NCBI GenBank assembly: GCA_020832545.1
Contig: JAFIEK010000008.1
Span: 1-64,000, forward strand
DNA: 64,000 bases
Direction: 5' to 3'
DNA from: Pararhodobacter sp.
GTDB taxonomy: Bacteria; Pseudomonadota; Alphaproteobacteria; Rhodobacterales; Rhodobacteraceae
In this document: piece after piece, positions 8,838-22,862 of the stretch
How positions within the stretch are numbered: position 1 is the first letter of the stretch
Layout: the number at the start of each line of letters is the position of its first letter
Translations under genes and position numbers: made by a program
Notes under the pieces: model-generated
Databases searched by the model: none
What the model saw: only the letters and a program-made list of their open reading frames with translations
Told to the model about the DNA's origin: nothing

Positions 8838-9412
8838 CTGTCGCGCGACAAACCGGCTTCACCCTGATCGAACTGATCGCAGTTCTGGCGATCTTCGCGC
8901 TGGTTTCGGTCATGGCGCTGCAAGGGTTGACCGGGGCAATCTACCAGCGCAGCGTGCTGGAGCGGGTCGACAACGAGGCCGAGACGCTGAGCCGCGCCCT
9001 GACCCTGCTGCGCCGCGATCTTGAAGCGGCGATCCCCGTCGCATTCCGTCCGCCGCTCTCAGACCCTGAACCCGCGCTCCATACGATTGAAGGCAGCGGC
9101 CGCTTCGCGCTCAGCATCGCCGGGCATCCCCGCCTGCCCGGCTCACCGGGCGCGGGTGCGGCGCGGGTCATCTGGCGGCATGACCCCGTCGCGGGCACGC
9201 TGGTGCGGCAGGTCTGGCCGGTGCTGGAACCCGCGCGCGGCACTGTCATCGAGCCAGAGCGGGTTATCCTCAGCGGTATCACCGGGCTGACCCTCACCCC
9301 GCTGGGAACATGGGAAGAGCGCACGACCACAAACGCCAGCCTTCCCGCCGGGCTTGAGGTCAACCTGACCTCATCGCAGCATGGCCCGCTCAGAGTGGTG
9401 GTGGCGCGATGA
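8834..9412 (+). CDS. gspJ: Type II secretion minor pseudopilin GspJ
   Basis: 192 aa with prepilin site TGFTLIELIAVLAIFAL, then the GspJ pattern (ALTLLRRDLEAAI, ARVIWRHDPVAGTLVRQVWP). Starts by an ATGA overlap with gspI and ends by an overlap with gspK. Part of the I-J-K tip trimer. Confidence 0.93.
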   Translation: MTVARQTGFTLIELIAVLAIFALVSVMALQGLTGAIYQRSVLERVDNEAETLSRALTLLRRDLEAAIPVAFRPPLSDPEPALHTIEGSGRFALSIAGHPRLPGSPGAGAARVIWRHDPVAGTLVRQVWPVLEPARGTVIEPERVILSGITGLTLTPLGTWEERTTTNASLPAGLEVNLTSSQHGPLRVVVAR

Positions 9413-10329
9413 GGGGGCGGTTGAACCGGGGTATGGCGCTGATCAATGCGTTGATCGTCGTGGCGGCCCTTGCGGCGGTCTCGGTGGCGCTGATCGCGCG
9501 CACCGACGCGGCCCGCCAACGGCTGGAGCTTCGCCAGCAAGCCGATCAGGCGACGCGGTATCTGGATGGCGCAGCGTTGCTCACGCAGCGCCTGATCGAG
9601 AACGCACCGCCTGAAACCATACACCTCCGGCAAGCATGGGCGCTGCCGCGCCGTGGCGAAGCGATTGACCGTGGCACGGTCAGTTGGGAAATCACCGATC
9701 TGCAAGGGCGATTCAATGTCAACTGGTTGATGCGAACCGACGCGATGGGTGAGGCCGCCCGCATTGCGCTGCCGCTTCTGGCCCGCGCGCAGGATGTGCC
9801 TGCCGCTGTCGCCGGGCGGCTGCAAAATGCGCTCGACCCTCTGAACCTTTTCCGCGACAGCGCTTTTGGCGGCAGTGCCGGTGTCAGCAGCCCGCCCGAT
9901 CTGCCGCTTGCAATGCCCAATGCGTTGCGCCTTGTCACCGGCGCGGGCGAGGCGCAGCTGGACGCGCTGATGCCCTATCTCGCCGCCCTGCCCCACAACA
10001 GCGCGCTCAATATCAACACCACAAGCCCGCAGGTTCTTGCGGCCTTTCTCCCTTCGCTGCGCCCCCGCGATCTGGCCTTGTTGCAGGAACGGCTGGAGGA
10101 GGCGCCCTTTCAGGACATTCAGGATTTTCTGGAATGGGCCGAACTTGCGTTTGGCGAACAAAGCCTCCTCATACTGGAAGGGCTGGACCTGACCACCGGG
10201 TCTGACTGGTTCGAGGCCCGACTGTCTGCACGCCTTGACACAGTCGCGCTGCAACGCTCTGCTGTGCTGCACCGCCGCGAGGACACGGGGCGCAGCGAGA
10301 TCGTCATGTCCATACCCGAGGTCGATTGA
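9409..10329 (+). CDS. gspK: Type II secretion minor pseudopilin GspK
   Basis: 306 aa, the large tip pseudopilin. The leader is MRGRLNRG, followed by a hydrophobic helix (MALINALIVVAALAAVSVALI) that lacks the Glu+5 (an Asn-Ala at that point), as in other GspK proteins. The body contains the SAM-like domain features WEITDLQGRFNVNWL and ALNINTTSPQVLAAFLPSL. Overlaps gspJ and gspL by a few bases. Confidence 0.92.
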   Translation: MRGRLNRGMALINALIVVAALAAVSVALIARTDAARQRLELRQQADQATRYLDGAALLTQRLIENAPPETIHLRQAWALPRRGEAIDRGTVSWEITDLQGRFNVNWLMRTDAMGEAARIALPLLARAQDVPAAVAGRLQNALDPLNLFRDSAFGGSAGVSSPPDLPLAMPNALRLVTGAGEAQLDALMPYLAALPHNSALNINTTSPQVLAAFLPSLRPRDLALLQERLEEAPFQDIQDFLEWAELAFGEQSLLILEGLDLTTGSDWFEARLSARLDTVALQRSAVLHRREDTGRSEIVMSIPEVD

Positions 10330-11561
10330 TGCCTGACACCGGCCCCGCCAGCGCGACACGTCGTTTCGGCCGGTTTTTCGGGCGCGGGGACCGTGTGCCC
10401 GGGTTCTGGCGGTTGGGGCAGGAACCCGCGCCACCGCCAGGGGCATTTGTTGCGCTGGTTCCGGGGGCCGAGGTTCCGCTTCTGAGCGTGACCTTGCCCG
10501 AGACGCTGAAGGGCACCGCGCGCGACAGCGTTGCCCGGCGGCAGTTGCAAGACCGGCTTGGCCCGGATGCCGCGCGGATGACCCTGCGCCCGGCGCGTCT
10601 GGACGGGAACGAAGGTTGGAGCCATCTTCTGAGCGCCGAGCGCGCGTTGGTCGCCCGCTGGCGGGCGCAGGTGCAGGCCGCGCGCGGCCGCTGCCGGGCC
10701 ATTTTGCCGGACTACCTGGCGCTACCCACCGCCCCCGGTCTGTGGACCATTCGCACCGAAGCTACCGGCGACGCGGTGATGGTGCAGGCACGGCTTGGCC
10801 CGGGCGATGGCTTCAGCGCCGAAGGACCACTTGCCGCGCTGCTTCTGGGGCAAGCGCTGGAGCGGGCGCGCACGCAAAGCAACGTGCCCGTGGCGGTGTT
10901 GCGCCTTGGCCCGCCTGACCCCGCACTTGATACGGCTATTGAGGGCGTGCCGGTTTTTTCTGACATCACTGCACTTCCCGCCTCGTTGTCGCGCCCGCGC
11001 GTGCTGGCGCATGGCGAAGCCGCACTTGATCTCGGCACGGACCCTCTCGCCACCGCCGAGATCACGCAGCAACGGCTGGTGGCGCTGCGCTGGCCACTGG
11101 CGCTGGCCGCGCTTGGCATGGTGGCCTGGGGGCTGTCGATCGAGGTTCAGACCCGGCGTGACCTTGCCTACGCCGCCGCCCTCGATACAGCAACGACTGA
11201 GGCCGTAAGGCGTGATTTTCTGCCTTCGGGCCCGCTTCTGGACATTCCCGCACAGATCACCCGCGAACTGGAACGCCGCCGCACGCCGGATGGTAACACC
11301 TCGGACCAACCCGCCCCGCTGGACCTGCTGCACGCCAGCTCCGGTCACATTGTCACCAGCCCGGCACGTCTGGTCTCGCTGGTGATGCAGCCCGGAAGCA
11401 GTCTGACCTTCGAACTGGAGATGGACGATTTCAGCACACTGGAGGCGTTGCTTGAGGATCTGCGTGCCAGTGATCTGCCCGCAAATGCCACCCGGTCAGG
11501 GACCGAGCCTGACGGGCGGGTGACCGCCACCTTGCTGATCACGATGGAGGGCGGGCAATGA
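10329..11561 (+). CDS. gspL: Type II secretion system protein GspL
   Basis: About 410 aa. The N-terminal part is the cytoplasmic actin-like domain that contacts GspE (VPLLSVTLPE near residue 55, AILPDYLALP near 130). A single membrane segment follows near residue 260 (WPLALAALGMVAWGLSI), then a periplasmic ferredoxin-like domain. The ATG overlaps the gspK stop; a TTG one codon earlier is possible. The GspE partner is not in this window. Confidence 0.88.
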   Translation: MPDTGPASATRRFGRFFGRGDRVPGFWRLGQEPAPPPGAFVALVPGAEVPLLSVTLPETLKGTARDSVARRQLQDRLGPDAARMTLRPARLDGNEGWSHLLSAERALVARWRAQVQAARGRCRAILPDYLALPTAPGLWTIRTEATGDAVMVQARLGPGDGFSAEGPLAALLLGQALERARTQSNVPVAVLRLGPPDPALDTAIEGVPVFSDITALPASLSRPRVLAHGEAALDLGTDPLATAEITQQRLVALRWPLALAALGMVAWGLSIEVQTRRDLAYAAALDTATTEAVRRDFLPSGPLLDIPAQITRELERRRTPDGNTSDQPAPLDLLHASSGHIVTSPARLVSLVMQPGSSLTFELEMDDFSTLEALLEDLRASDLPANATRSGTEPDGRVTATLLITMEGGQ

Positions 11562-12061
11562 CCGACCGTCTTGTGCAGTTTCTGGCCGCGATGAGCGGGC
11601 GCGAGCGCCTTCTGGTCGCACTTTTGCTGATCATCGCTATCCCTGCCGGGTTGGTGCAGGGCGTGGCGATGCCGCTTCTGGCCCGACAGGACGCCGCGCG
11701 CCTTGCGGTGGCCGAGGCCGAGGCCATGCAGGACTGGCTGCGCGCGCGACAGGCCGAGCTGGCGATGCTACCCGCCATAAACAACGCCGGACCCGCCCAG
11801 GAACAGACCCCGCCCGCAGGCCTGAGCGCGCTTGAAACCGGGCTGGTCAGCGCCGGCTTGCGCGAGCCGCTGGTCACATTGACCAACCCTTCCGGTGGCA
11901 GTGTGTCCCTTCGGTTTCAGGCCGCCCCGTTCACCCGTCTGATGCCATGGCTTGAAGAGGTCGAGCAACGAATGGGGTATCGGCTGACCATGCTGCGGCT
12001 GTCGCAGACCGACGCGCCGGATCAGGTGGATGCTGAAATCCAGTTGGAGCCGCGGCAATGA
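11558..12061 (+). CDS. gspM: Type II secretion system protein GspM
   Basis: 167 aa, single-span inner-membrane protein with the helix near residues 17-35 (LLVALLLIIAIPAGLVQG), a short coiled coil and a periplasmic domain ending with the GspM-like LMPWLEEVEQRMGYRLTMLRLSQT. It partners GspL. ATGA overlaps with both neighbours. Confidence 0.88.
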   Translation: MTDRLVQFLAAMSGRERLLVALLLIIAIPAGLVQGVAMPLLARQDAARLAVAEAEAMQDWLRARQAELAMLPAINNAGPAQEQTPPAGLSALETGLVSAGLREPLVTLTNPSGGSVSLRFQAAPFTRLMPWLEEVEQRMGYRLTMLRLSQTDAPDQVDAEIQLEPRQ

Positions 12062-12792
12062 TCCGCGCACTGCTCCTCATATTCGGTCTTGCCCTGGGCC
12101 TTGCGCTTGCGCTTCTGGCCGAGGGGCGCATGGCGCATCTGCGCGCGATCGCCAGTGACCGGCTGCCGGCCTGGACCAAGTTCATCAGCCCCGACACACG
12201 GTTCTGGCATGGTCAGACCACACCCTTGCCCGGCCCCGTGAATCTGGCCGCCGAGTGGCGGCTGGCAAGGCTGGATCGCGCGGGTCCCGTCTGGCAGTTG
12301 CAGCTTGCCGCCCCAGGTTTGTCCCTTTCTGGCGCGGTGCGACTGGGCACCGATGGCCGGATGTCGCTGGAGCAGTTGCAAGGCCCGGTCAACGTGGCCG
12401 CGCTGGAGATCTGGGAAACCCCGCCTGCCTTGAGCGGCGTTCTTCAGATCACCCGCGCCGATGCGGCCTTTGACCCCGATACTGGCATGCTGGCAAGGCT
12501 GCAGACCGAAGGATACGCCGCAGATGTGATGCTGGATCAGACGCCCTTTGGTGAGGGCCGCTTTGCATCGCAGCTGGATTCCGGCGGCCGCTGGCAACTC
12601 AGCCTGACATTGCCCGACAGTCAGGCCGAAGTTGAGGTTGAGGGCGATACCCTCGGTGGCATCCTGCGCGCGCATGTTCCCCAGGACCGAGCAGATGCCC
12701 TGCCCCCCGGCTGGGGCAATCCACTGCCCTTGGGCGACGACCGGGTGATGGTCAGCTACCTGCTGCCGCTGATTGTGGGCGACAGCAGATAG
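12058..12792 (+). CDS. gspN: Type II secretion system protein N (GspN)
   Basis: 244 aa with an N-terminal membrane anchor (ALLLIFGLALGLALALL) and a periplasmic beta-rich region fitting the GspN family (GPVNLAAEWRLARLD, LQGPVNVAALEIWETPPALSGVLQI). GspN is a non-universal T2SS component of unclear role. It ends the operon; the convergent hydrolase gene stops 9 nt beyond. Confidence 0.8.
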   Translation: MIRALLLIFGLALGLALALLAEGRMAHLRAIASDRLPAWTKFISPDTRFWHGQTTPLPGPVNLAAEWRLARLDRAGPVWQLQLAAPGLSLSGAVRLGTDGRMSLEQLQGPVNVAALEIWETPPALSGVLQITRADAAFDPDTGMLARLQTEGYAADVMLDQTPFGEGRFASQLDSGGRWQLSLTLPDSQAEVEVEGDTLGGILRAHVPQDRADALPPGWGNPLPLGDDRVMVSYLLPLIVGDSR

Positions 12793-12801
12793 AACGCCCG
12801 G

Positions 12802-13635
12802 TCAGGGCCGGATCAGTCGATATCCACTGCCTTTGCGCTCAACCGCATGAAATGCCGGGTGCAGGAAATGGCCGCCGGTGAACAACGCGCCATCACTGGC
12901 CAGTTCATCAAGCAACCGCTTGCGGGTATCGCGTGCGGTGTTCATGTCGATGTCAAAGACGATGCCAATTTCGGGGTCAGGCACCTGTAGGGCGGGCGCA
13001 TGAACGATGTCACCGACATGGATCAGTTGTTCACTGCCCGATGACAAGCGCCACCCGCTGTGGCCCGGCGTATGCCCTGGCAGCGCGACCGAGGTCAGGC
13101 CCGGCGCGATCTCGTCGCCATCCCCGATGATCCGCAGCCGGCCGGCATAGGCGGCAAGCACGGCACGTGCCAGCCCACCCCATTCCGAAACCGGCTCGCC
13201 TGCACCTGCGGTGGTGGCCTCGTTGCTCCAGAAATCATATTCGCCCTTTGTGATGCACAATTCGGCATTGGGGAAGGTGGCCTTGCCGTCAGGTGTGATC
13301 ATCCCGGCGATATGATCGGGGTGCAGATGGGTTGCGAACAAAAGATCGATGTCTTCTGGCTGGGTGCCCGCTTCCTTCAGCGCCTCAGGCAGGAACCCGG
13401 CGCTGGGACCAAACAGGTCGCGCGGCCCGGCATCCGCCAGAATCAGCTTGCCGCCATTGCGAATCAGGACCGCATTGAAATTGGTAGCAATTTCGCCGGT
13501 TCCGGCTTTCGCCAGCAACGCATCGATATGCGCGCCATCGGTTTCGGGGAAATAGTCAGCCGGAAAGGCAAGGCCCCCGTCGGTCAGGATGGTCACGTCG
13601 GCCGAGCCAATCTTGCGGGTGGCGGTTCTGGACAT
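12802..13635 (-). CDS. Metallo-beta-lactamase fold hydrolase
   Basis: 277 aa. It has the MBL zinc motif in FATHLHPDHIAG near residue 105, the ALPGHTPGHSGW histidine near 185 and IHVGDIVHAP near 208. The family includes lactonases and other hydrolases; substrate unknown. No signal peptide is seen. It is divergent from the ArsR-phosphatase gene with a 96-bp spacer, so it could share arsenic control, but an arsenic role is not indicated by its sequence. Confidence 0.88.
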   Translation of the reverse strand: MSRTATRKIGSADVTILTDGGLAFPADYFPETDGAHIDALLAKAGTGEIATNFNAVLIRNGGKLILADAGPRDLFGPSAGFLPEALKEAGTQPEDIDLLFATHLHPDHIAGMITPDGKATFPNAELCITKGEYDFWSNEATTAGAGEPVSEWGGLARAVLAAYAGRLRIIGDGDEIAPGLTSVALPGHTPGHSGWRLSSGSEQLIHVGDIVHAPALQVPDPEIGIVFDIDMNTARDTRKRLLDELASDGALFTGGHFLHPAFHAVERKGSGYRLIRP

Positions 13636-13683: not shown

Positions 13684-13713
13684 CTGACAAGGCCATTGCG
13701 TTGTCGATATTAT
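13684..13713 (+). promoter_or_regulatory. Candidate promoter of the arsenic operon
   Basis: CTGACA at 13684-13689 and TATTAT at 13708-13713 are separated by 18 nt, 18 nt upstream of the ArsR-fusion ATG. The surrounding AT-rich spacer is the expected place for self-repression by the ArsR domain. Prediction from consensus only. Confidence 0.4.
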
Positions 13714-13731
13714 TTCTTTATTTCACGAATC

Positions 13732-14541
13732 ATGGAAAAAGAAATCTCGCAGCTGTCCGCCCTTGCCCACCCTCAACGGTTGGCCATCTTCCGCCTGCTG
13801 ATGCGCCGCTTTCCAGACAGGTTGCCTGCGGGCGAAATTGGCGCGGTTCTCGCGATCAGACCCAGCACGCTTTCGGCGTATCTCTCTGCCCTGCATGGCG
13901 CCGGGCTGATCACCCAGGAACGCAGGGGCACCTCGCTGCTCTACTCGGTTGCGCGCGACAGCGCCGAGGAGTTGATCAGCTTTCTGTTTCATGACTGCTG
14001 CCGCGACCGCGCCGATCTGAGCGGCACCGATCCTGACCATGCCGGGCGAACCGGGCCGCGCATTCGCAACGTACTGTTCCTGTGCTCTGGCAACTCGGCG
14101 CGCTCGCTGATGGCTGAGTCCCTTTTGCGTCAGATGGCGGGCGACCGCTTTGAGGTGTTCTCCGCCGGGACCGAGGCGCGAAGCGCGCCTCATCCCATGG
14201 CGTTGGACCTGCTGACGACAAAGGGCCACGATACCGCCTGTCTGTGGTCAAAGCCGGTCAGTACACTTCGCGCCGGGGACGGGCCTCGCATGGACTTCGT
14301 CTTTTCGGTCTGCGACCGCGCCGCCAATGCCGACCTGGGTAATTGGACCGGCCATCCACTCCAGGGCCACTGGGCCGTGCCGGACCCGGTGGGCGACGAC
14401 GCCCCCGATGCCTTCGCCCGCAGCTACGAGGCGCTGCAAAACCGTATCGCCCGCTTCGCCGATCTGCCCGACGACATGCCCCGCCCTGTCCTTCAGCGCC
14501 AGATCGACGAGATCGCGCTTCTCTCCCTTGCCGCAAGTTAA
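13732..14541 (+). CDS. ArsR-type regulator fused to arsenate-reductase-like low-MW phosphatase
   Basis: About 269 aa. Residues 1-90 are an ArsR winged helix (LAHPQRLAIFRLL, IRPSTLSAYLSALHGAGLI), ending in a vicinal cysteine pair (C89, C90). From about residue 111 follows a low-molecular-weight tyrosine phosphatase/ArsC domain: C118-SGNSA-R124 is the Cx5R loop and VPDP (D218) is the acid loop. Two further cysteines (C170, C194) could serve a redox relay. The vicinal Cys pair resembles the C-terminal As(III) site of the Acidithiobacillus-type ArsR; that comparison is from memory. It leads an operon with the ArsJ-partner GAPDH (9-nt gap) and arsJ. Confidence 0.88.
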   Translation: MEKEISQLSALAHPQRLAIFRLLMRRFPDRLPAGEIGAVLAIRPSTLSAYLSALHGAGLITQERRGTSLLYSVARDSAEELISFLFHDCCRDRADLSGTDPDHAGRTGPRIRNVLFLCSGNSARSLMAESLLRQMAGDRFEVFSAGTEARSAPHPMALDLLTTKGHDTACLWSKPVSTLRAGDGPRMDFVFSVCDRAANADLGNWTGHPLQGHWAVPDPVGDDAPDAFARSYEALQNRIARFADLPDDMPRPVLQRQIDEIALLSLAAS

Positions 14542-14550
14542 GGATTTTTC

Positions 14551-15549
14551 ATGACCACCTATGCTATCAATGGCATGGGCCGCATGGGCAAGCTGGCGCT
14601 GCGCCCGCTGCTTGAGCGCGGTGCCCGGATTGCGTTTGTAAACGATGCAACCGGCGATCCGCAGATGCACGCGCATCTGCTGGAGTTCGACAGCGTCCAC
14701 GGTCGTTGGCCCGCGCACTTCGCCCATGACACCCACAGCCTCACCATTGATGACACGCAGATCGCTGTCGCAAAAGCCCGCCAGATCCAGGACCTGCCGC
14801 TTGCCGGTGTCGATGTGGTGATCGATTGCACCGGTGCGTTCAAGACCGCCGCCGCGCTGCAACCCTACTTCGACGCCGGGGTGAAACGCGTGGTCGTATC
14901 GGCCCCGGTGAAAGAGGCTGAGGCCATCAATATCGTCTATGGCGTCAATCACGACCGGTTCGACCCCGCTCGCCACCGCATCATCACCGCTGCCAGTTGC
15001 ACTACCAACTGTCTGGCGCCGGTGGTGAAGGTTCTGCATGAGAGCATCGGCATCCGCCACGGGTCTATCACCACGATCCATGATGTCACCAACACCCAGA
15101 CCATTGTCGACCGCCCGGCCAAGGACCTGCGCCGCGCGCGCTCGGCGCTGACCAATCTCATCCCCACCACGACCGGCAGCGCCACGGCGATCACGCTGAT
15201 CTATCCGGAACTCAAGGGCCGTCTGAACGGCCATGCGGTGCGCGTGCCCTTGCTGAACGCCTCGATCACCGATTGCGTGTTCGAGATGAATCGCGACACC
15301 AGTGTGGACGAGGTGAATGCTCTGTTCAAAGCCGCCGCTGAAGGCGCGCTCAAAGGCATTCTGGGCTATGAAGAGCGCCCGCTGGTGTCATCTGATTATA
15401 CCAACGACCAGCGCTCAGCGATCATTGATGCCCCGTCGACCATGGTGATTAACGGCACACAGGTGAAAATCTATGCCTGGTATGACAATGAGATGGGGTA
15501 TGCGCACCGGCTGGTGGATGTGGCGCTGATGGCCGGGGCAGCGGGATGA
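14551..15549 (+). CDS. ArsJ-associated glyceraldehyde-3-phosphate dehydrogenase
   Basis: 332 aa GAPDH-fold enzyme. An N-terminal NAD fold ([15 protein letters not shown]) is followed by the catalytic cysteine in [11 protein letters not shown] and the [11 protein letters not shown] segment, which sets ArsJ-linked enzymes apart from glycolytic GAPDH. Known role: in the presence of arsenate it forms 1-arseno-3-phosphoglycerate, which ArsJ exports and which then decays to arsenate outside. Sits directly between the ArsR fusion and arsJ, which confirms the assignment. Confidence 0.95.
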
Positions 15550-15637
15550 AGCGCGGGGCCGCACGTCCGGGCCGGGCGGAACCGGAGGCGTTCCGAGCTG
15601 TGCCAGTCTTGCGCCCATACTTGCAGGGGCGCGCGTG

Positions 15638-16885
15638 ATGTCATCGGACGCCCGCCCGCTGGCCGCCTATATCACCGTCACCGCCGCCTACTGGGCCTTC
15701 ATGCTCTCGGACGGTGCCTTGCGGATGCTGGTGCTGTTGCACTTCCACATCCTCGGCTTCTCGCCCGTCCAGTTGGCCTATCTGTTTCTGCTCTACGAAC
15801 TGGCAGGGATTGTTACCAATCTGTCCGCCGGTTGGCTGGCCGCACGCTTCGGGCTGACCCGTACGCTTTATGCCGGGCTTAGCTTGCAAATTATCGCGCT
15901 ACTGGCGCTGGCGCTTCTTGATCCGGCGTGGACGCTGGGGTTCTCGGTTGTTTATGTGATGCTGGTTCAGGGTCTGTCCGGTGTGGCCAAGGACCTGGCC
16001 AAGATGTCATCGAAAAGCGCGGTCAAGCTGCTGGCACCTACCAGCGGTGACGGCTTGTTCCGCTGGGTGGCTGCGTTGACCGGATCAAAAAACGCGGTCA
16101 AGGGTCTGGGCTTTCTGGCCGGGGCGGCCTTGCTGGCAACACTTGGTTTTGTCCCGGCGGTTCTGGCGATGGCTGCGGTTCTGGCGCTGATTCTGATCGC
16201 GGTCATCTTGCGGATGCCGCCGGGCCTGCCGACCGGGCGCAAGGATACCCGGTTCCGTGAGGTCTTCTCGAAGGATGCCAATATCAACCGCCTGTCGCTG
16301 GCCCGCGTCTTTCTGTTCGGCGCGCGCGATGTGTGGTTCGTGGTCGGTATTCCGATCTACTTCTACGCCGTCCTCTCGGATGGCACCCCTGAGGGCAACC
16401 GGGCGGCGTTTTTCCTGATCGGTGGCTTTATGGCCGCGTGGATCATCCTTTACGGGGGCGTGCAGGCCCTCGCGCCCCGCATCCTGCGCGCCGCGCGACG
16501 CCCCCTGCCCGAACTGGCGGCTTCAGCCCGAGACTGGGCGGCAGTGCTGAGCGTGGTGCCCGGCGTTCTGGCGCTCACCGTCTGGCTGGCCGGCGCCCCC
16601 GCGCCGTGGCTGACGGGTGTGCTGATCGCTGGGTTGCTGCTTTTTGGGGTCCTGTTTGCCGTAAATTCGGCGTTGCACTCTTTCTTGATTCTCGCCTTCT
16701 CACAGGGCAGCCGGGTGACGATGGATGTGGGGTTCTACTATATGGCCAATGCGGCCGGGCGGCTTTTGGGCACGTTGCTTTCAGGCGTCAGCTATCAGGT
16801 GGGCGGCTTGGCGCTGTGTCTGGGCACGGCGGCGATGATGCTGGCGCTGAGCGCGCTGTCCGCCGCGCGACTGGGTGTGCGCTGA
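15638..16885 (+). CDS. arsJ: ArsJ organoarsenical efflux MFS transporter
   Basis: About 415 aa, with about 12 membrane segments of the major facilitator type. It fits ArsJ by pattern (LSGVAKDLAKMSSKSAVKLL, GSKNAVKGLGF) and by its place after the specialised GAPDH gene. ArsJ exports 1-arseno-3-phosphoglycerate. A GTG lies one codon upstream of the chosen ATG; the AGGGG site is 9 nt before the ATG. It is separated from the GAPDH gene by 88 bp, longer than other gaps in this operon. Confidence 0.94.
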   Translation: MSSDARPLAAYITVTAAYWAFMLSDGALRMLVLLHFHILGFSPVQLAYLFLLYELAGIVTNLSAGWLAARFGLTRTLYAGLSLQIIALLALALLDPAWTLGFSVVYVMLVQGLSGVAKDLAKMSSKSAVKLLAPTSGDGLFRWVAALTGSKNAVKGLGFLAGAALLATLGFVPAVLAMAAVLALILIAVILRMPPGLPTGRKDTRFREVFSKDANINRLSLARVFLFGARDVWFVVGIPIYFYAVLSDGTPEGNRAAFFLIGGFMAAWIILYGGVQALAPRILRAARRPLPELAASARDWAAVLSVVPGVLALTVWLAGAPAPWLTGVLIAGLLLFGVLFAVNSALHSFLILAFSQGSRVTMDVGFYYMANAAGRLLGTLLSGVSYQVGGLALCLGTAAMMLALSALSAARLGVR

Positions 16886-17762: not shown

Positions 17763-18284
17763 TCAGGGTGTGTCCGGTGCCGGACCCGTTTCATTGATCA
17801 ACAGCGGATTGTTCGGCAAGGCCCCTATCAGATACGCCAGCGACTGCTTCAGCCGTTGACGCTCAACAGGGGGAAGCAGGGCCATGATCCGTGCCTCATG
17901 TCCGCGCGCCTCGATAACCAGCGCATCCGCCAGCGCGCGACCCGCAGGGGCCAGATACACCCTGACCCGCCGCCGGTCGCGGGTATCGCCCCGCCGCTCG
18001 ACAAGCTTGCGCTCTTCCATCCGCTCGATAACGCGGGTCATGGCCGATTGTTCCATCAATGCAAGCGCGGCAAGGCGGGTGATCATCTGTCCATCCTTGT
18101 CATGCAGGGAGGCCAGAGCGCGCCATTCCGGCACTCTGAGCCCGTGATCACGGATGATATGATGGAAGCCCGCGCTGGCCGAAGCGCTGGCCGCAGCCAG
18201 CAGAAACAGCAGGTAATCTTCCAGAAACCGTTGGTCACAGCCATCCTCGGATGGGGTTTCAGAGGCGATCGGCATGTGCGGCAT
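17763..18284 (-). CDS. MarR family transcriptional regulator
   Basis: 173 aa winged-helix regulator: VPEWRALASLHDKDG, then LALMEQSAMTRVIERMEERKLVERR and the wing DTRDRRRVRVYLAPAG are typical MarR. It diverges from the reductase-oxygenase-ligase operon, and the 159-bp spacer has a palindrome, so it likely controls that operon and itself in response to an aromatic or CoA-linked ligand, as HcaR/BadR-type MarR proteins do. The ligand is inferred. Confidence 0.93.
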   Translation of the reverse strand: MPHMPIASETPSEDGCDQRFLEDYLLFLLAAASASASAGFHHIIRDHGLRVPEWRALASLHDKDGQMITRLAALALMEQSAMTRVIERMEERKLVERRGDTRDRRRVRVYLAPAGRALADALVIEARGHEARIMALLPPVERQRLKQSLAYLIGALPNNPLLINETGPAPDTP

Positions 18285-18398
18285 CAGAGTTTTCCCACGA
18301 ATTGCCCAAACTTACGGCAGGCTGGTGGCCCGGCGCAATCGCAAACCCATATAATATGATTTTTCATCTTTTCCGACTCAAAATGCTTGACGCAAGTT

Positions 18399-18414
18399 GC
18401 ATGATATTTCATGC
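18399..18414. promoter_or_regulatory. Palindrome GCATGA-TATT-TCATGC, candidate MarR operator
   Basis: A perfect 6-bp inverted repeat with a 4-nt spacer lies about 30 bp upstream of the reductase start. It is flanked by ATGCTTGA (18383-18390) and ATGCTTCA (18411-18418), a near direct repeat. A TATAAT hexamer occurs at 18350-18355. The size and symmetry suit a MarR dimer. Confidence 0.5.
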
Positions 18415-18443
18415 TTCAATAATCCAGCCGGGGAATCGTTACC

Positions 18444-19400
18444 TTGCCAGAACTGACACTCAGCCTTTTGTCTGTCCGCGATGTTGCCGAAAGGGTGCGG
18501 GAGTTCACGCTTGCCGCACCGGATGGCGCAAAATTGCCGGGCTTTGCCGCCGGGGCACATGTCGAAGTCCGGCTGCCCGATGGCGAGACACGCCCCTACT
18601 CGCTGGTTGATCTGGACGCGACCGCCGCCGGGCCGGATCGTTATGTTCTGGGTGTGCTGCTGGAACGCGACAGCCGGGGCGGCTCGCGCCACATGCATGC
18701 GCTGCAGCCGGGCGACACACTGACACTCAGCGCGCCAAAGAACAGCTTTGCCCTTGCCGAGGGCGCGGCCCCCGCGCTGCTGATCGCGGGCGGTATCGGC
18801 ATTACGCCGATCGTCTCTATGGCTACGGCGCTCAAGGCAGAAGGGCGACCTTACCGGATGGTGTATGCCGGGCGCCACGCCGGGGCGATGGCCTTTGCCG
18901 ATGTGCTGCGTGATCACCACGGCGCTGCCCTGACGCTGCATCACGACGATGTGGCGGGCGGCCCGCTGCCGCTCGCACCCATCATCCAATCCGCTGCGCC
19001 TGAAACGCACATCTACGTCTGTGGCCCGCGCGCCATGATTGAGGCTGCGCGCGAGGCCGCGACTGCCGCTGGATTCACCCCCGAACAGGTGCATTTCGAA
19101 CTGTTTGAACAGGCCGCGCTCCAGACCGGCGACCAGCCGTTCGAGGTTGAAATCGCCTCGACCGGGCAGGTTTTCACCGTTCCCGCCGACAAGACCATCA
19201 TCGAGGCGCTGGAGGATGAGGGGATCGACCTGATCTATGACTGCCAGCGCGGCGATTGTGGCATCTGCCAGACCGGCCTGTTGGAAGGCGAGGCCGATCA
19301 CCGCGATGTCGTGCTGACCGATGCCGAGCGCGCCGCCAATACCCTGATCCATATTTGCGTCAGCCGTGCGCGCTCTGCCCGGTTGAAACTGGACCTTTGA
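18444..19400 (+). CDS. PDR/VanB-type oxidoreductase (FMN, NAD, 2Fe-2S), electron donor of the ring oxygenase
   Basis: 318 aa. Domain order is that of phthalate dioxygenase reductase: flavin-binding barrel (ETRPYSLVD near residue 50), NAD domain (LIAGGIGITPIVSM near 112, YVCGPRAMIEAA near 190), and a C-terminal plant-type ferredoxin (DCQRGDCGICQTG, with the last Cys in IHICVSRAR). It feeds electrons from NAD(P)H to the Rieske oxygenase encoded next. The start is TTG, which begins the protein at the expected PELTLSLLS; a GGGGAA lies about 10 nt before it. Confidence 0.93.
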   Translation: MPELTLSLLSVRDVAERVREFTLAAPDGAKLPGFAAGAHVEVRLPDGETRPYSLVDLDATAAGPDRYVLGVLLERDSRGGSRHMHALQPGDTLTLSAPKNSFALAEGAAPALLIAGGIGITPIVSMATALKAEGRPYRMVYAGRHAGAMAFADVLRDHHGAALTLHHDDVAGGPLPLAPIIQSAAPETHIYVCGPRAMIEAAREAATAAGFTPEQVHFELFEQAALQTGDQPFEVEIASTGQVFTVPADKTIIEALEDEGIDLIYDCQRGDCGICQTGLLEGEADHRDVVLTDAERAANTLIHICVSRARSARLKLDL

Positions 19401-19414
19401 GGGAGGAAATGAAC

Positions 19415-20761
19415 ATGCAGACCCCCGAAAACCGCCAAGCGATGGCCGCCATGGTGCAACCGCAACAGGTGCATCGCGACCTCTACATCAGCCCCCGGCT
19501 GTTCCAGCTGGAGGTCAAGCATCTGTTTTCCAACGCATGGGTCTATATCGGCCACGACAGCCAGACACCGAAGAAGGGTGACTACTACACCACCCAGATC
19601 GGTGATCAGCCGCTGATCATGGTGCGCCATAGCGATGATCAGATCCACGTTCTGTACAACCGCTGCCCGCATAAAGGCACCAAGATCGCAATTGACCGCA
19701 CTGGCAATACCGGCAAATTCTTCCGCTGCCCCTATCACGCCTGGAGCTTCAAGACCGACGGTTGCCTGTTGGCGATCCCGCTGAAGAAGGGCTACGAGGG
19801 CACCGGGCTGGACCAGACCGAAGCCGCCAAGGGCATGACGCCGGTGGGCGCGGTGGAAAACTATCGCGGCTTCATCTTTGCCCGCCTCGCGCCCGAGGGG
19901 ATCTCGTTTGCGGATTACTTCGGCGATGCGCTGTCGTCGCTCGACAACATGGTGGACCGCTCGCCTGCCGGTCGACTGGAAGTGGTCGGCGCGCCGCTGC
20001 GATATATGCACAAATGCAACTGGAAGATGCTGGTCGAGAACCAGACCGACACCTGCCACCCGATGGTCGCGCATGAATCCTCGGCCGGGACGGCGGTGAA
20101 GATCTGGGAGAGCATGGACAAGCCCGAGGGCACCCCCACGCCTGCCGCGATGGAGATCATCGCGCCCTTCATGTCGCCCTATGAATTCTTTGAGAACATG
20201 GGCATCCGCACCTGGCCCAACGGCCACGGCCATACCGGTGTGCACCATTCGATCCATTCCGACTATTCCGCCATTCCGGGTTATTTTGAGCAGATGGTCG
20301 AAGCCTATGGCGAAGAGCGCGCGCAGCAGATTCTGGGCGAGAACCGGCACAACACGGTCTATTTCCCGAACATCATGATCAAGGGGCCGATCCAGCAGCT
20401 GCGCAACTTCATCCCGCTCGCGCATGACCGCACGCTGGTGGAAAGCTGGATCTTCCGGCTGGTCGATGCGCCCGATGAACTGGTGGCGCGCACGGCGATG
20501 TATAACCGGATGATCAATGCGCCCACTTCGATGGTCGGGCACGATGATCTGGAAATGTACGAGCGCGCGCAGGAGGGGCTTGCGGCGCAGGGATCAGACT
20601 GGGTGAATGTGCAGCGCCTCTATGAGGAGAGCGAGAATTTCGACGAGGAGGCTGTGCTCAACGGCACCACGGAACGCCAGATGCGCAACCAGTTCCATGC
20701 CTGGCTGAAGTTCATGACCATGACCATGCCGGACGCCGAACCACAGGAGGCCGCAGAATGA
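19415..20761 (+). CDS. Rieske non-haem iron aromatic-ring-hydroxylating oxygenase, alpha subunit
   Basis: About 448 aa. Rieske cluster ligands C84, H86, C105 and H108 are visible (CPHKG and CPYHAW), and the mononuclear iron facial triad region is ENQTDTCHPMVAH (H215, H220, with bridging D212). An upstream ATG at 19409 is only 2 nt from the GGAGG site, so I prefer the ATG at 19415 (8 nt spacing). With the beta subunit it should form a dioxygenase acting on an aromatic ring. Substrate unknown; the CoA ligase downstream suggests an aromatic acid. Confidence 0.93.
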   Translation: MQTPENRQAMAAMVQPQQVHRDLYISPRLFQLEVKHLFSNAWVYIGHDSQTPKKGDYYTTQIGDQPLIMVRHSDDQIHVLYNRCPHKGTKIAIDRTGNTGKFFRCPYHAWSFKTDGCLLAIPLKKGYEGTGLDQTEAAKGMTPVGAVENYRGFIFARLAPEGISFADYFGDALSSLDNMVDRSPAGRLEVVGAPLRYMHKCNWKMLVENQTDTCHPMVAHESSAGTAVKIWESMDKPEGTPTPAAMEIIAPFMSPYEFFENMGIRTWPNGHGHTGVHHSIHSDYSAIPGYFEQMVEAYGEERAQQILGENRHNTVYFPNIMIKGPIQQLRNFIPLAHDRTLVESWIFRLVDAPDELVARTAMYNRMINAPTSMVGHDDLEMYERAQEGLAAQGSDWVNVQRLYEESENFDEEAVLNGTTERQMRNQFHAWLKFMTMTMPDAEPQEAAE

Positions 20762-21264
20762 CCGATACCCTGACCGCCACCCGCGCCGATGTCACGCGAG
20801 AGCAGTTGATCGATTTCGTTTATGCCGAAGCGCGGATGCTTGATGAGGGCCGGTTTGATGAATGGCTGACGCTCTGGGCGCCAGAAGGCATCTACTGGAT
20901 GCCGCTGGACTGGAACCAGCAGGACGCCATCCACGAGACATCGCTGCTCCATGAAGATCAGTTCATGCTGCGGCTGCGCGTTGAGCGTTTGAATGGCGCA
21001 CGCACCTTCAGCCAGAAGCCGAAAAGCCGTTGTCTGCATGTGCTCAATCGCCCCGATGTCGACCTGATCGACAACGAGGCCGGGCGCTACACGGTTGTCA
21101 CCCGCATGACCTATGTTGAGACCCGTCTGGATGAGCAGTTCCTTCTGGCGGTCACCGCCACGCATGATCTGGCTTGGCAGGAGGGCGCGTTGAAGATCCG
21201 CCAGAAGCGTGTCGATATCCTGAACTGTGACGCCGCTTTCGGCAACATTCAGCTTCTGCCGTGA
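20758..21264 (+). CDS. Aromatic-ring-hydroxylating dioxygenase beta subunit
   Basis: 168 aa, NTF2-like fold of the small oxygenase subunit: LIDFVYAEARMLDEGRFDEWLTLW and the end segment IRQKRVDILNCDAAFGNIQLL are typical of BenB/HcaF-type proteins. It is structural and has no metal ligands. ATGA overlap with the alpha gene and overlap with the ligase gene show translational coupling. Confidence 0.93.
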   Translation: MTDTLTATRADVTREQLIDFVYAEARMLDEGRFDEWLTLWAPEGIYWMPLDWNQQDAIHETSLLHEDQFMLRLRVERLNGARTFSQKPKSRCLHVLNRPDVDLIDNEAGRYTVVTRMTYVETRLDEQFLLAVTATHDLAWQEGALKIRQKRVDILNCDAAFGNIQLLP

Positions 21265-22862
21265 TGCTCATGCAGGGCACAACCGTCTTTGAGGCGTTCA
21301 CCGAAACCGCCCGGCTTTGGCCTGCGCGGCCCTTTCTGAACGTCCTGCCAGAGACGGCTACGGTTTACGCGATCGAGCCGGGTGAAATAGCCTATGGCGA
21401 TGCGCTGACTGAGGTAGAGCGACTGCGCAATGCGCTATCAACCGCCGGTCTGACTCGTGGCCACCGCGTCATGCTGCTGCTGGAAAACCGGCCAGCGTTC
21501 TTTCTCTGGTGGCTGGCCGTAAACGCACTTGGGGCCTCGGTCGTGCCGGTAAACCCGGATCTGCGCGCGGCTGAGCTGGAGTATATGGCAGGCCATGTCA
21601 CCCCCGCGCTGGCCGTCGCCATTCCCGCGCGCGCAGCCGATCTGCAAACGGCAGCGCTGGCGGCGGGCATCACCATGCCGGTGATATCCCCCGATGCGCC
21701 CCTGCCCGCCATCACCACCGCCCCGGTTTTCGACGGCGACGAGGCGGCGGTGCTTTATACCTCGGGCTCCACCGGGCGGCCTAAGGGCTGCGTATTGGGC
21801 AATGATTATTTTCTGGGCGCAGGCCGCTGGTATGCCGCCGAGGGCGGGCTTTGCGCCCTGCAAGACGGCGACCGGATGATCACGCCGCTGCCGATCTTTC
21901 ACATGAATGCCATGGCCTATTCCTTCATGGCCATGATCGCGGTTGGCGGCTGCCTGACCGCGCTGGACCGTTTTCACCCGCGCAGCTGGTGGCAATCAGT
22001 CCGCGACAGTGGTGCCACCTGCCTGCACTATCTGGGCGTCATGCCCTCGATGCTGATGGGGCTGCCCGCCAGCCCGGATGACCGCGCGCACAAGGTCCGT
22101 TTCGGCTTTGGCGCGGGGATCGACCCCAAGCTGCACGCGGGTTTTGAAGAGCGCTTCGGCATCCCGCTGGTCGAGGCCTGGGCGATGACCGAAACCGGCG
22201 CAGGCGCGGTGATCGCCGCCAGCCAGATGCCGCGCCGGGTGGGCGAAAGCTGTCTGGGCAAGCCGGGACCAGAGATGGAATTGCGCATTGTTGGCGATGA
22301 CGGCGCTCCGGTGGCAGCGGGCCAGCCGGGTGAGTTGCTGGTGCGCGCCGCCGGGCCAGACCCGCGCGCGGGGTTCTTTCGAAACTATCACCGCGATGAA
22401 GAAGCCACCACCGAGGCCTGGGAGGGCGGCTGGTTCCATACCGGCGACATCGTCCGGCAAGAGCCATCTGGCGAAGTGTTCTTCGTCGATCGCAAGAAAA
22501 ACGTCATCCGCCGCTCGGGCGAGAATATTGCGGCGGTCGAGGTGGAATCGGTGCTGATGCGTCACCCCGCCGTGCGCGCCGCCGCCGTTACCGCCGTGCC
22601 CGATACTATGCGCGGCGACGAGGTCTTCGCCTGCATCGTCACCGATAATCCCACACCCGCACTTGCACGCGGCATCGCCGAATGGGCACTGGGCCAGATG
22701 GCCTATTACAAAGTGCCCGGCCATATCGCCTTTGTCGATTCGCTGCCTCTGACCGCCACCAACAAACTGCAACGCGCCGAGCTGAAGGCGCTGGCCGCGC
22801 GTCTGCTGGCTGATCCTTCGACCGTGGACACAACCGCCCTCAAACGCCGACAGGTTGCCTGA
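21264..22862 (+). CDS. Acyl-CoA synthetase/AMP-dependent ligase
   Basis: About 532 aa ANL-superfamily enzyme: P-loop-like LYTSGSTGRPKGC, AWAMTETGAG, GWFHTGDIV and the C-terminal hinge DRKKNVIRRSGENIA with PLTATNKLQR. It activates a carboxylic acid to its CoA thioester through an acyl-adenylate. A GTG one codon earlier is an alternative start; both overlap the beta-subunit stop. Within this operon the substrate may be the aromatic acid or a side-chain acid produced by the pathway (inference). Confidence 0.92.
   Translation: MLMQGTTVFEAFTETARLWPARPFLNVLPETATVYAIEPGEIAYGDALTEVERLRNALSTAGLTRGHRVMLLLENRPAFFLWWLAVNALGASVVPVNPDLRAAELEYMAGHVTPALAVAIPARAADLQTAALAAGITMPVISPDAPLPAITTAPVFDGDEAAVLYTSGSTGRPKGCVLGNDYFLGAGRWYAAEGGLCALQDGDRMITPLPIFHMNAMAYSFMAMIAVGGCLTALDRFHPRSWWQSVRDSGATCLHYLGVMPSMLMGLPASPDDRAHKVRFGFGAGIDPKLHAGFEERFGIPLVEAWAMTETGAGAVIAASQMPRRVGESCLGKPGPEMELRIVGDDGAPVAAGQPGELLVRAAGPDPRAGFFRNYHRDEEATTEAWEGGWFHTGDIVRQEPSGEVFFVDRKKNVIRRSGENIAAVEVESVLMRHPAVRAAAVTAVPDTMRGDEVFACIVTDNPTPALARGIAEWALGQMAYYKVPGHIAFVDSLPLTATNKLQRAELKALAARLLADPSTVDTTALKRRQVA

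Follow-up and report, generated by a model that had tools for sequence, protein, structure and literature searches.

An ArsR–ArsC fusion protein with altered cysteine sites ahead of a GAPDH-ArsJ operon in Pararhodobacter

Introduction

Operons containing arsJ export arsenate without reducing it, yet the ArsR repressors characterised in the sources considered here answer trivalent arsenic. How such an operon perceives arsenate is the question addressed here, for a locus of Pararhodobacter sp. (Rhodobacteraceae; assembly GCA_020832545.1, contig JAFIEK010000008.1). The stretch analysed comprises positions 1 to 64,000 of this contig and is referred to as the window. In it, one gene encodes an ArsR-type repressor fused to a domain of the arsenate reductase (ArsC) fold, and is followed by genes for glyceraldehyde-3-phosphate dehydrogenase (GAPDH) and the transporter ArsJ.

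A reductase–repressor fusion is a published answer to this question. In a Paracoccus fusion of ArsR and ArsC described by Chen et al. (2022; Environ. Microbiol. 24:1977), the As(III) formed from As(V) is supplied to the ArsR domain, as cited in PMC9479143 (excerpt; citations so marked refer to the accessible part of the source). Fusions of ArsR with ArsC have also been named for L. ferriphilum, Microbacterium and Sinorhizobium (PMC6205960, excerpt), and ArsR-ArsC2 fusions for clusters C4 and C7 of Actinobacteria (PMC6514093, excerpt); these too carry both domains in one chain, and the excerpted descriptions draw no tie to ArsJ operons. The fusion type and the idea of a sensor making its own arsenite are already published, and the linkage of the fusion to ArsJ is not claimed as new. 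The new part is a set of natural variants, which lack a relay cysteine, lack the cysteines of the arsenite site, or carry a dead catalytic loop. They are ready-made mutants that could separate the making of arsenite, the binding of arsenate and a redox switch. With their altered cysteines, the window protein and its nearest kin may sense arsenic differently.

Domains and cysteines of the window protein

The preliminary description of this locus had placed an ArsR domain and a phosphatase-fold domain in one polypeptide. This was borne out, as C89-C90, C118-x5-R124 and VPDP are all present in a single frame of 269 residues. The features of the fusion are as follows.

13732..14541, + strand: ArsR-ArsC fusion protein, 269 aa; single open reading frame from ATG at 13732 to the stop at 14541, with profile and structure matches
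13744..14001, + strand: ArsR winged-helix domain, residues 5-90, with C89-C90 at its end (profiles, model); the S97 codon follows at 14020-14022
14002..14064, + strand: linker, residues 91-111; AlphaFold2 pLDDT below 50 over residues 91-107
14065..14517, + strand: ArsC / low-molecular-weight phosphatase-fold domain, residues 112-262 (profile, structure matches); codons for C118 at 14083-14085, R124 at 14101-14103, C194 at 14311-14313, L202 at 14335-14337 and D218 at 14383-14385

When the ArsR half was compared with curated cut-offs, it scored 54.2 bits for NF033788 (cut-off 55), 26.9 for HTH_20 (cut-off 27) and 22.0 for HTH_5 (cut-off 22). Its best solved relative is 6j05, the ArsR of A. ferrooxidans (AfArsR; PMC9137774), matched over residues 5-96, a span that includes C89-C90. 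The second half matched LMWPc (PF01451) with 56.2 bits (cut-off 23.2) over residues 114-242; the C118-x5-R124 loop is intact, and VPDP lies at 216-219. The NCBIfam models for thioredoxin- and glutaredoxin-type arsenate reductases all remained under their cut-offs (51.4 against 157.6, 49.2 against 215 and 39.3 against 174.3 bits), the highest score being that of a glutaredoxin type.

An AlphaFold2 model, built from an alignment of 13 sequences (mean pLDDT 81.1), predicts a helix at 75-90 that terminates in C89-C90, disorder over 91-107 and a second domain from about 112 to 262. A fold search with this model, by which the ArsR half was barely probed, gave several top matches that differ by no more than one Z unit, among them D. 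indicus ArsC2 (Z 19.9, rmsd 1.3, 126 residues), pI258 ArsC (Z 19.6) and 1lk0 (Z 19.4, rmsd 1.7, 129 residues), the last entitled 'Disulfide intermediate of C89L Arsenate reductase from pI258'. Further matches included arsenate reductases of the glutaredoxin and mycothiol types (2myu, 3rh0). Protein tyrosine phosphatase was rejected as the main identity, since ArsC structures rank top and the relatives have the redox cysteines of ArsC. Of the domain type given earlier, the Cx5R loop holds, with two corrections: the domain belongs to the ArsC class and is no protein tyrosine phosphatase, and the third redox cysteine of that class is gone, which the preliminary description did not mention.

The cysteines of the window protein are C89, C90, C118, C170 and C194; Leu occupies position 202 and Ser position 97. 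Alignment with B. subtilis ArsC showed that C118, C194 and C202 of the fusions match the relay of thioredoxin-type ArsC, whose members in pI258 ArsC we take to be Cys10, Cys82 and Cys89. L202 aligns with the resolving cysteine of the B. subtilis enzyme, and the residue is Cys in 12 of the 12 other rows of alignment A2. Thus, measured against thioredoxin-type ArsC, the nucleophile Cys and the Arg are present, as is the second redox cysteine (C194), and the third is replaced. The window domain has in common with the pI258, B. subtilis and D. indicus enzymes the fold, the oxyanion loop, the first two redox cysteines and the Asp-Pro; it differs by Leu in place of the third and by its fusion to a repressor.

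On the ArsR side, the vicinal pair of the three-cysteine type 2 site of AfArsR is present, and the third cysteine is replaced (S97). The pair closes the last ArsR helix, as it does in AfArsR and SpArsR. Lacking the third cysteine, the window protein differs from AfArsR and matches the SpArsR type, by cysteine pattern only. No reductase domain is described on AfArsR or SpArsR in the excerpted sources. By its description (PMC9479143, excerpt), the Paracoccus ArsRC likewise ties arsenate to an ArsR sensor in one chain with ArsC; the window copy, for its part, is without C202 and the third arsenite ligand.

Taken most simply, the family is a repressor–reductase by which arsenate acts on a switch of the arsenite type, and which governs the export of arsenate and sometimes of arsenite. 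By its residues, the window protein appears as a derived member with changes in the relay as well as in the arsenite site. We give even chances to the reading that it is an autorepressor of GAPDH-ArsJ that acts mainly as a sensor, with arsenate reduction slow or single-turnover at most. A slow or single-turnover sensor is favoured because the loop is kept, the recycling cysteine is lost, and, by the title of 1lk0, the disulfide intermediate of ArsC was captured in crystals of the C89L mutant. The domains, cysteine pattern, conservation, operon and operator-like repeat are read from the sequence; from these we infer repression, the ligand, single turnover, the coupling of the domains and the activities of the relatives.

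The proposed course is this. In the ancestor, arsenate would have been reduced via C118, C194 and C202 in turn, and arsenite sensed at C89/C90/C97. In the window lineage the last relay cysteine and the third arsenite ligand would have been replaced, with the oxyanion loop, the nucleophile, C194 and C89-C90 retained. Arsenate would enter the C118-R124 loop, and its reduction, slow or once per recharge, would leave a C118-C194 disulfide. Either this step or the binding of a trivalent arsenical to C89-C90 may be the signal on which the repressor leaves a site just ahead of its own start, and GAPDH and ArsJ would then be made.

The operon and the distribution of the fusion

That the fusion gene heads a GAPDH-ArsJ operon, as had been described, was confirmed, with both partners exceeding curated cut-offs.

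14551..15549, + strand: ArsJ-associated GAPDH (NF033735, 562 bits, cut-off 450)
15635..16885, + strand: ArsJ, organoarsenical efflux transporter of the major facilitator superfamily (NF033734, 531 bits, cut-off 400)

The operon logic of arsR, GAPDH, Cys-based phosphatase and arsJ recalls the V. cholerae var operon (arsR-varG-varH-arsJ), for which VarH was proposed as an arsenatase acting on 1-arseno-3-phosphoglycerate, and As(V) sensing by its ArsR was proposed without demonstration (PMC9601151, excerpt). Repressor, arsenate-using GAPDH, Cys-based phosphatase-type domain and ArsJ are common to both, and the window domain has the C-x5-R loop and the Asp that an arsenatase of this kind would use. 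We nevertheless consider it highly improbable that the window domain is such an arsenatase. VarH stands alone as a protein and is described as a phosphatase of a different type, the dual-specificity type, and as rather exclusive to Vibrionaceae (PMC9601151, excerpt); the window domain best matches ArsC structures, and the ArsC redox cysteines of its relatives would be needless in a hydrolase.

The fusion was sought in a family sample of 198 genomes, one per genus, with the window protein as query. Among the matches listed, we read 118 places that covered most of the query, and one named locus; 8 were not a single full-length frame, and the fusion set therefore numbers 112 (111 and the window). 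The fusion occurs in no fewer than 108 of these 198 genomes, that of the window counted, which excludes a rare oddity; ArsJ was above cut-off in 118 of the 198. For 98 of the 112 full-length fusions, GAPDH and/or ArsJ lay no more than 4 kb downstream in the same orientation (ArsJ for 94, GAPDH alone for 4). The four GAPDH-alone loci are short stretches, and the genome search puts ArsJ 1.0-2.1 kb past each fusion. Neither gene was found in 4 kb for 12 of the 112, and 2 were on stretches of insufficient length. Because there are 111 other single-frame fusions, and 98 of the 112 stand ahead of GAPDH and/or ArsJ, the fusion is real, and a chance read-through or frameshift was discarded.

Six fusions without ArsJ (L073, L078, L086, L090, L091, L100) are followed, in the same orientation, by another ArsC-type frame that stands by itself.

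Public annotation gives fusion, GAPDH and arsJ on plasmid pDE of Cereibacter sphaeroides 2.4.1, a laboratory strain whose fusion combines a complete relay with a single cysteine at the ArsR site. In Ruegeria conchae, whose fusion also has a complete relay, the order is fusion, GAPDH, arsJ and ACR3, with overlapping genes. On a plasmid of Paracoccus seriniphilus (L337), fusion-GAPDH-ArsJ adjoins a gene pair annotated arsenate reductase (azurin), a name in use for arsenite oxidase.

Beyond the family, ArsJ was above cut-off in 33 of 289 genomes of a class sample, and of 31 such ArsJ loci read from outside the family, 11 had the fusion ahead of GAPDH in the same orientation, no more than 0.7 kb away. 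In a phylum sample (398 genomes), the unbroken fusions among the matches listed came mostly from the window's family, and several other genomes among these matches had adjacent ArsR and ArsC separated by a stop. The latter arrangement suggests that the fusion arose via loss of a stop codon.

Across the 112 fusions, C118 and R124 were present in all, C194 and D218 in 111 each and C202 in 107, and the ArsR-side cysteines C89, C90 and C97 in 91, 85 and 79. The four others without C202 (L084, L088, L115 and L139) have Ser, Ser, Thr and Ala there and fall outside the window lineage. L139 also lacks C194; ArsJ is split at L084, was not found near L115 and L139, and follows GAPDH at L088. In the wider set of 142 used for the tree (below), 90 rows combine C89-C90 with all three relay cysteines, and 84 of these 90 also have C97; other cysteines are rare.

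The window lineage and its dead-loop relatives

A tree was made of 142 fusions (the 112, 19 more from the window's genus and 11 from other families), from an alignment stripped of positions 89-97 and of the main catalytic columns. It is a quick tree, in which 63 of 139 inner branches are open, and only supported clades were used. The window falls in a clade of 11 rows confined to its own genus (SH-aLRT 99). Four members, the window, L222, L223 and L224, stand ahead of GAPDH-ArsJ. All four keep C118, R124, C194, H213, W214, D218, P219, C89 and C90; position 202 is Leu, Leu, Leu and Ala, respectively, and C97 is gone in all. E200, G215 and G224, which are conserved in the complete-relay fusions, are changed in the four as well.

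This conservation bears on the strongest rival, a working multi-turnover sensor-reductase that passes arsenite to C89-C90, with glutathione/glutaredoxin recycling the C118-C194 disulfide or attacking the C118 adduct. The catalytic residues and C89-C90 kept by 4 of 4 members speak for it, as do the Paracoccus precedent (PMC9479143, excerpt) and the fold matches of glutaredoxin and mycothiol type (2myu, 3rh0). Working against it are the presence of C202 in 107 of 112 fusions and the further changes at E200, G215 and G224 in this lineage. In addition, the ArsR half has the two-cysteine pattern of SpArsR, which is reported to answer methylarsenite (MAs(III)) but to give no response with As(III) (PMC11868830, PMC13236881, excerpts). 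We regard the multi-turnover enzyme as possible but doubtful.

Six other members of the clade (L229, L234, L236, L237, L239, L240) have Gly118, Pro124 and Gly194 and are still in frame; no ArsJ was found for these within the stretch read. L238 has, of the relay cysteines, C118 only. A divergent hydrolase gene shares the intergenic region with the fusion gene of the window.

12802..13635, - strand: metallo-beta-lactamase-fold hydrolase, AidB-lactonase-like (206.6 bits, below the cut-off of 360)

The hydrolase is the divergent neighbour in 10 of the 11 clade rows (not L237), at 66-75% identity. Beside the other fusion loci read none was found except one weak match (L120, 61.6 bits). Because the same divergent hydrolase is near-exclusive to this clade, the locus of the dead fusions is probably the ancestral one of the window, minus the ArsJ operon.

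Within the clade, the divergent hydrolase is retained where GAPDH-ArsJ is absent.

The ratio of nonsynonymous to synonymous substitution rates (dN/dS) was obtained for 10 pairs by a simple count method, with dS partly saturated and stop-to-stop frames that may include bases before the start. It was 0.13-0.24 for the ArsJ-linked members (both halves, three pairs), 0.16-0.38 for the phosphatase half of the dead fusions (four pairs) and 0.04-0.20 for complete-relay fusions (three pairs). The first of these ranges indicates purifying selection on each half of the fusion in the window lineage. Because the ratio is 0.16-0.38 in its four pairs, the dead-loop domain appears to be constrained, but less so.

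These fusions, in frame and under such constraint, together with the hydrolase common to 10 of 11 rows, point to another reading: the ArsC-fold domain is turning into a passive structural part, regulation passes through C89-C90 alone, and the neighbouring metallo-hydrolase belongs to the regulon. For the window protein we think this clearly unlikely. The four ArsJ-linked members have preserved C118, R124, C194 and D218, which is unlike drift. Moreover, the decay may have struck only a copy that was redundant, because in 5 of the 7 dead or partly dead tree loci the genome has a second, complete-relay fusion (G198, G199, G202, G207 and G210; not G203 and G214).

Fusions without arsenite-site cysteines

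The opposite loss was found in a clade of 28 rows (SH-aLRT 98). None of these has Cys at 89, 90 or 97, and C118, C194 and C202 are present in 28 of 28; one Cys occurs elsewhere among the first 111 residues in 5 of them. GAPDH follows in all 28 and ArsJ in 27 (at L117 in two frames), the last locus being at a contig end. Two rows outside the clade also lack both C89 and C90.

Judged by their residues, the no-Cys fusions would be unable to sense arsenite at a site of the AfArsR type. That this clade keeps the relay without arsenite-site cysteines, and that six dead-loop fusions retain the domain, suggests that the ArsC-fold domain matters to the regulator beyond feeding arsenite to C89-C90. The proposal that the fusion is a sensor making its own As(III) ligand has to be divided accordingly. 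It is sound as an account of the family, for which the Paracoccus ArsRC is published (PMC9479143, excerpt); it is not general, because the 28-member clade keeps the relay without Cys at 89, 90 and 97; and it is weaker for the window protein, which has L202 and S97, both positions being non-Cys in its three nearest kin as well.

The putative operator

13712..13731, + strand: putative operator, imperfect inverted repeat ATTTC-N10-GAATC, directly adjoining the start codon (consensus ATTTC-N10-GAAAT)

The operator-like repeat of the window, at position -20, is off the family consensus in 2 of 10 fixed letters. The search zone was the last 42 bases ahead of the start codon, or running into the start. 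With at most one mismatch, ATTTC-N10-GAAAT was found in 60 of 90 fusions with C89-C90 and a complete relay and in 18 of 29 no-Cys fusions for which upstream sequence was available (0.002 and 0.000, respectively, for single-base shuffles), the motif having been derived from the same sequences. Over all groups there are 84 such sites, and 76 of them have their first base at -20. L224 has the repeat with zero mismatches. For the six dead fusions no operator-like site was found within two mismatches. The putative operator differs from the published core ATCAA-N6-TTGAT (PMC9137774).

Arsenite pumps

The pump survey comprised ACR3 and ArsB; ArsK, ArsP, AqpS, ArsM and ArsH lay outside it. Of 110 family-sample fusions, 18 are followed by ACR3 in the same orientation at a distance of no more than 6 kb, and 16 of the 18 belong to GAPDH-ArsJ loci; ACR3 was above cut-off in 78 of the 198 genomes. 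ArsB was above the Pfam cut-off in 8 of the 198, in one strongly (500.9 bits; next 98.6). These counts across fusions and genomes indicate that arsenite export can belong to the system and is often not visible. When only genomes with a completeness of 95% or more were counted, 48 GAPDH/ArsJ loci with a complete-relay fusion had ACR3 above cut-off in the genome and 35 did not, and a rule that a full reductase occurs only with an arsenite pump was therefore unsupported.

In the window's genome ACR3 is in two frames (G000:C27:63704-64692, L304), beside an ArsR-like gene, and may be a pseudogene or an assembly error; ArsB was not found there. The two other PF01451 genes of this genome are, by eye, without ars-like surroundings, and there is one PF03960 protein.

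It had also been suggested that the linked domain gives the operon a dual strategy. That 16 of 110 family-sample fusions have ACR3 on the same strand in a GAPDH-ArsJ locus is in favour of this; the case for the window copy itself is weaker, C202 and C97 being gone.

Proposed mode of sensing by the window protein

Several points weigh against the view of the window protein as an autorepressor that is mainly a sensor, with little or no turnover. AfArsR without its third cysteine still binds As(III), at lower affinity (PMC8470949, excerpt), and glutathione/glutaredoxin could stand in for the lost relay cysteine. Loss of C202 can be plain decay, because four fusions outside the lineage have lost it, at least one of them in a split-ArsJ locus (L084). 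Since none stands ahead of ArsJ, the dead relatives may serve another purpose. ACR3 within the GAPDH-ArsJ locus in 16 of 110 fusions fits real arsenite production across the wider family, and L222 and L223 are without the operator repeat (3 and 4 mismatches).

A more pointed form of the same sensor reading would make the window protein a natural single-turnover arsenate switch, in which the trapped C118-C194 disulfide frees the ArsR repressor. With its resolving cysteine lost, the domain would be nature's equivalent of the C89L mutant, and an enzyme would have become a direct As(V) sensor. The window protein would then mark an intermediate on the way from repressor-enzyme to repressor-pseudoenzyme within one genus, another clade keeping the enzyme and dropping the arsenite site. 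We hold this form to be rather improbable.

ArsJ loci without the fusion and other genes of the window

Same-family ArsJ loci without the fusion (L242-L261, L265-L270) had an upstream ArsR match in 2 of 26, by a profile made from the fusions that could miss other ArsRs, with a few loci ending early. Many fusion-less ArsJ loci may lack a local ArsR, and control of fusion-less GAPDH-ArsJ loci by phosphate is our guess. A further such locus with an ArsR match, L313, lies outside the 26.

Elsewhere in the window, tandem frames at 9409-12789 (+ strand) resemble, by eye, the GspK-N genes of type II secretion. At 17763-21998, a MarR-family regulator (Pfam) stands beside frames that by eye resemble a Rieske-type ring-hydroxylating dioxygenase and its reductase.

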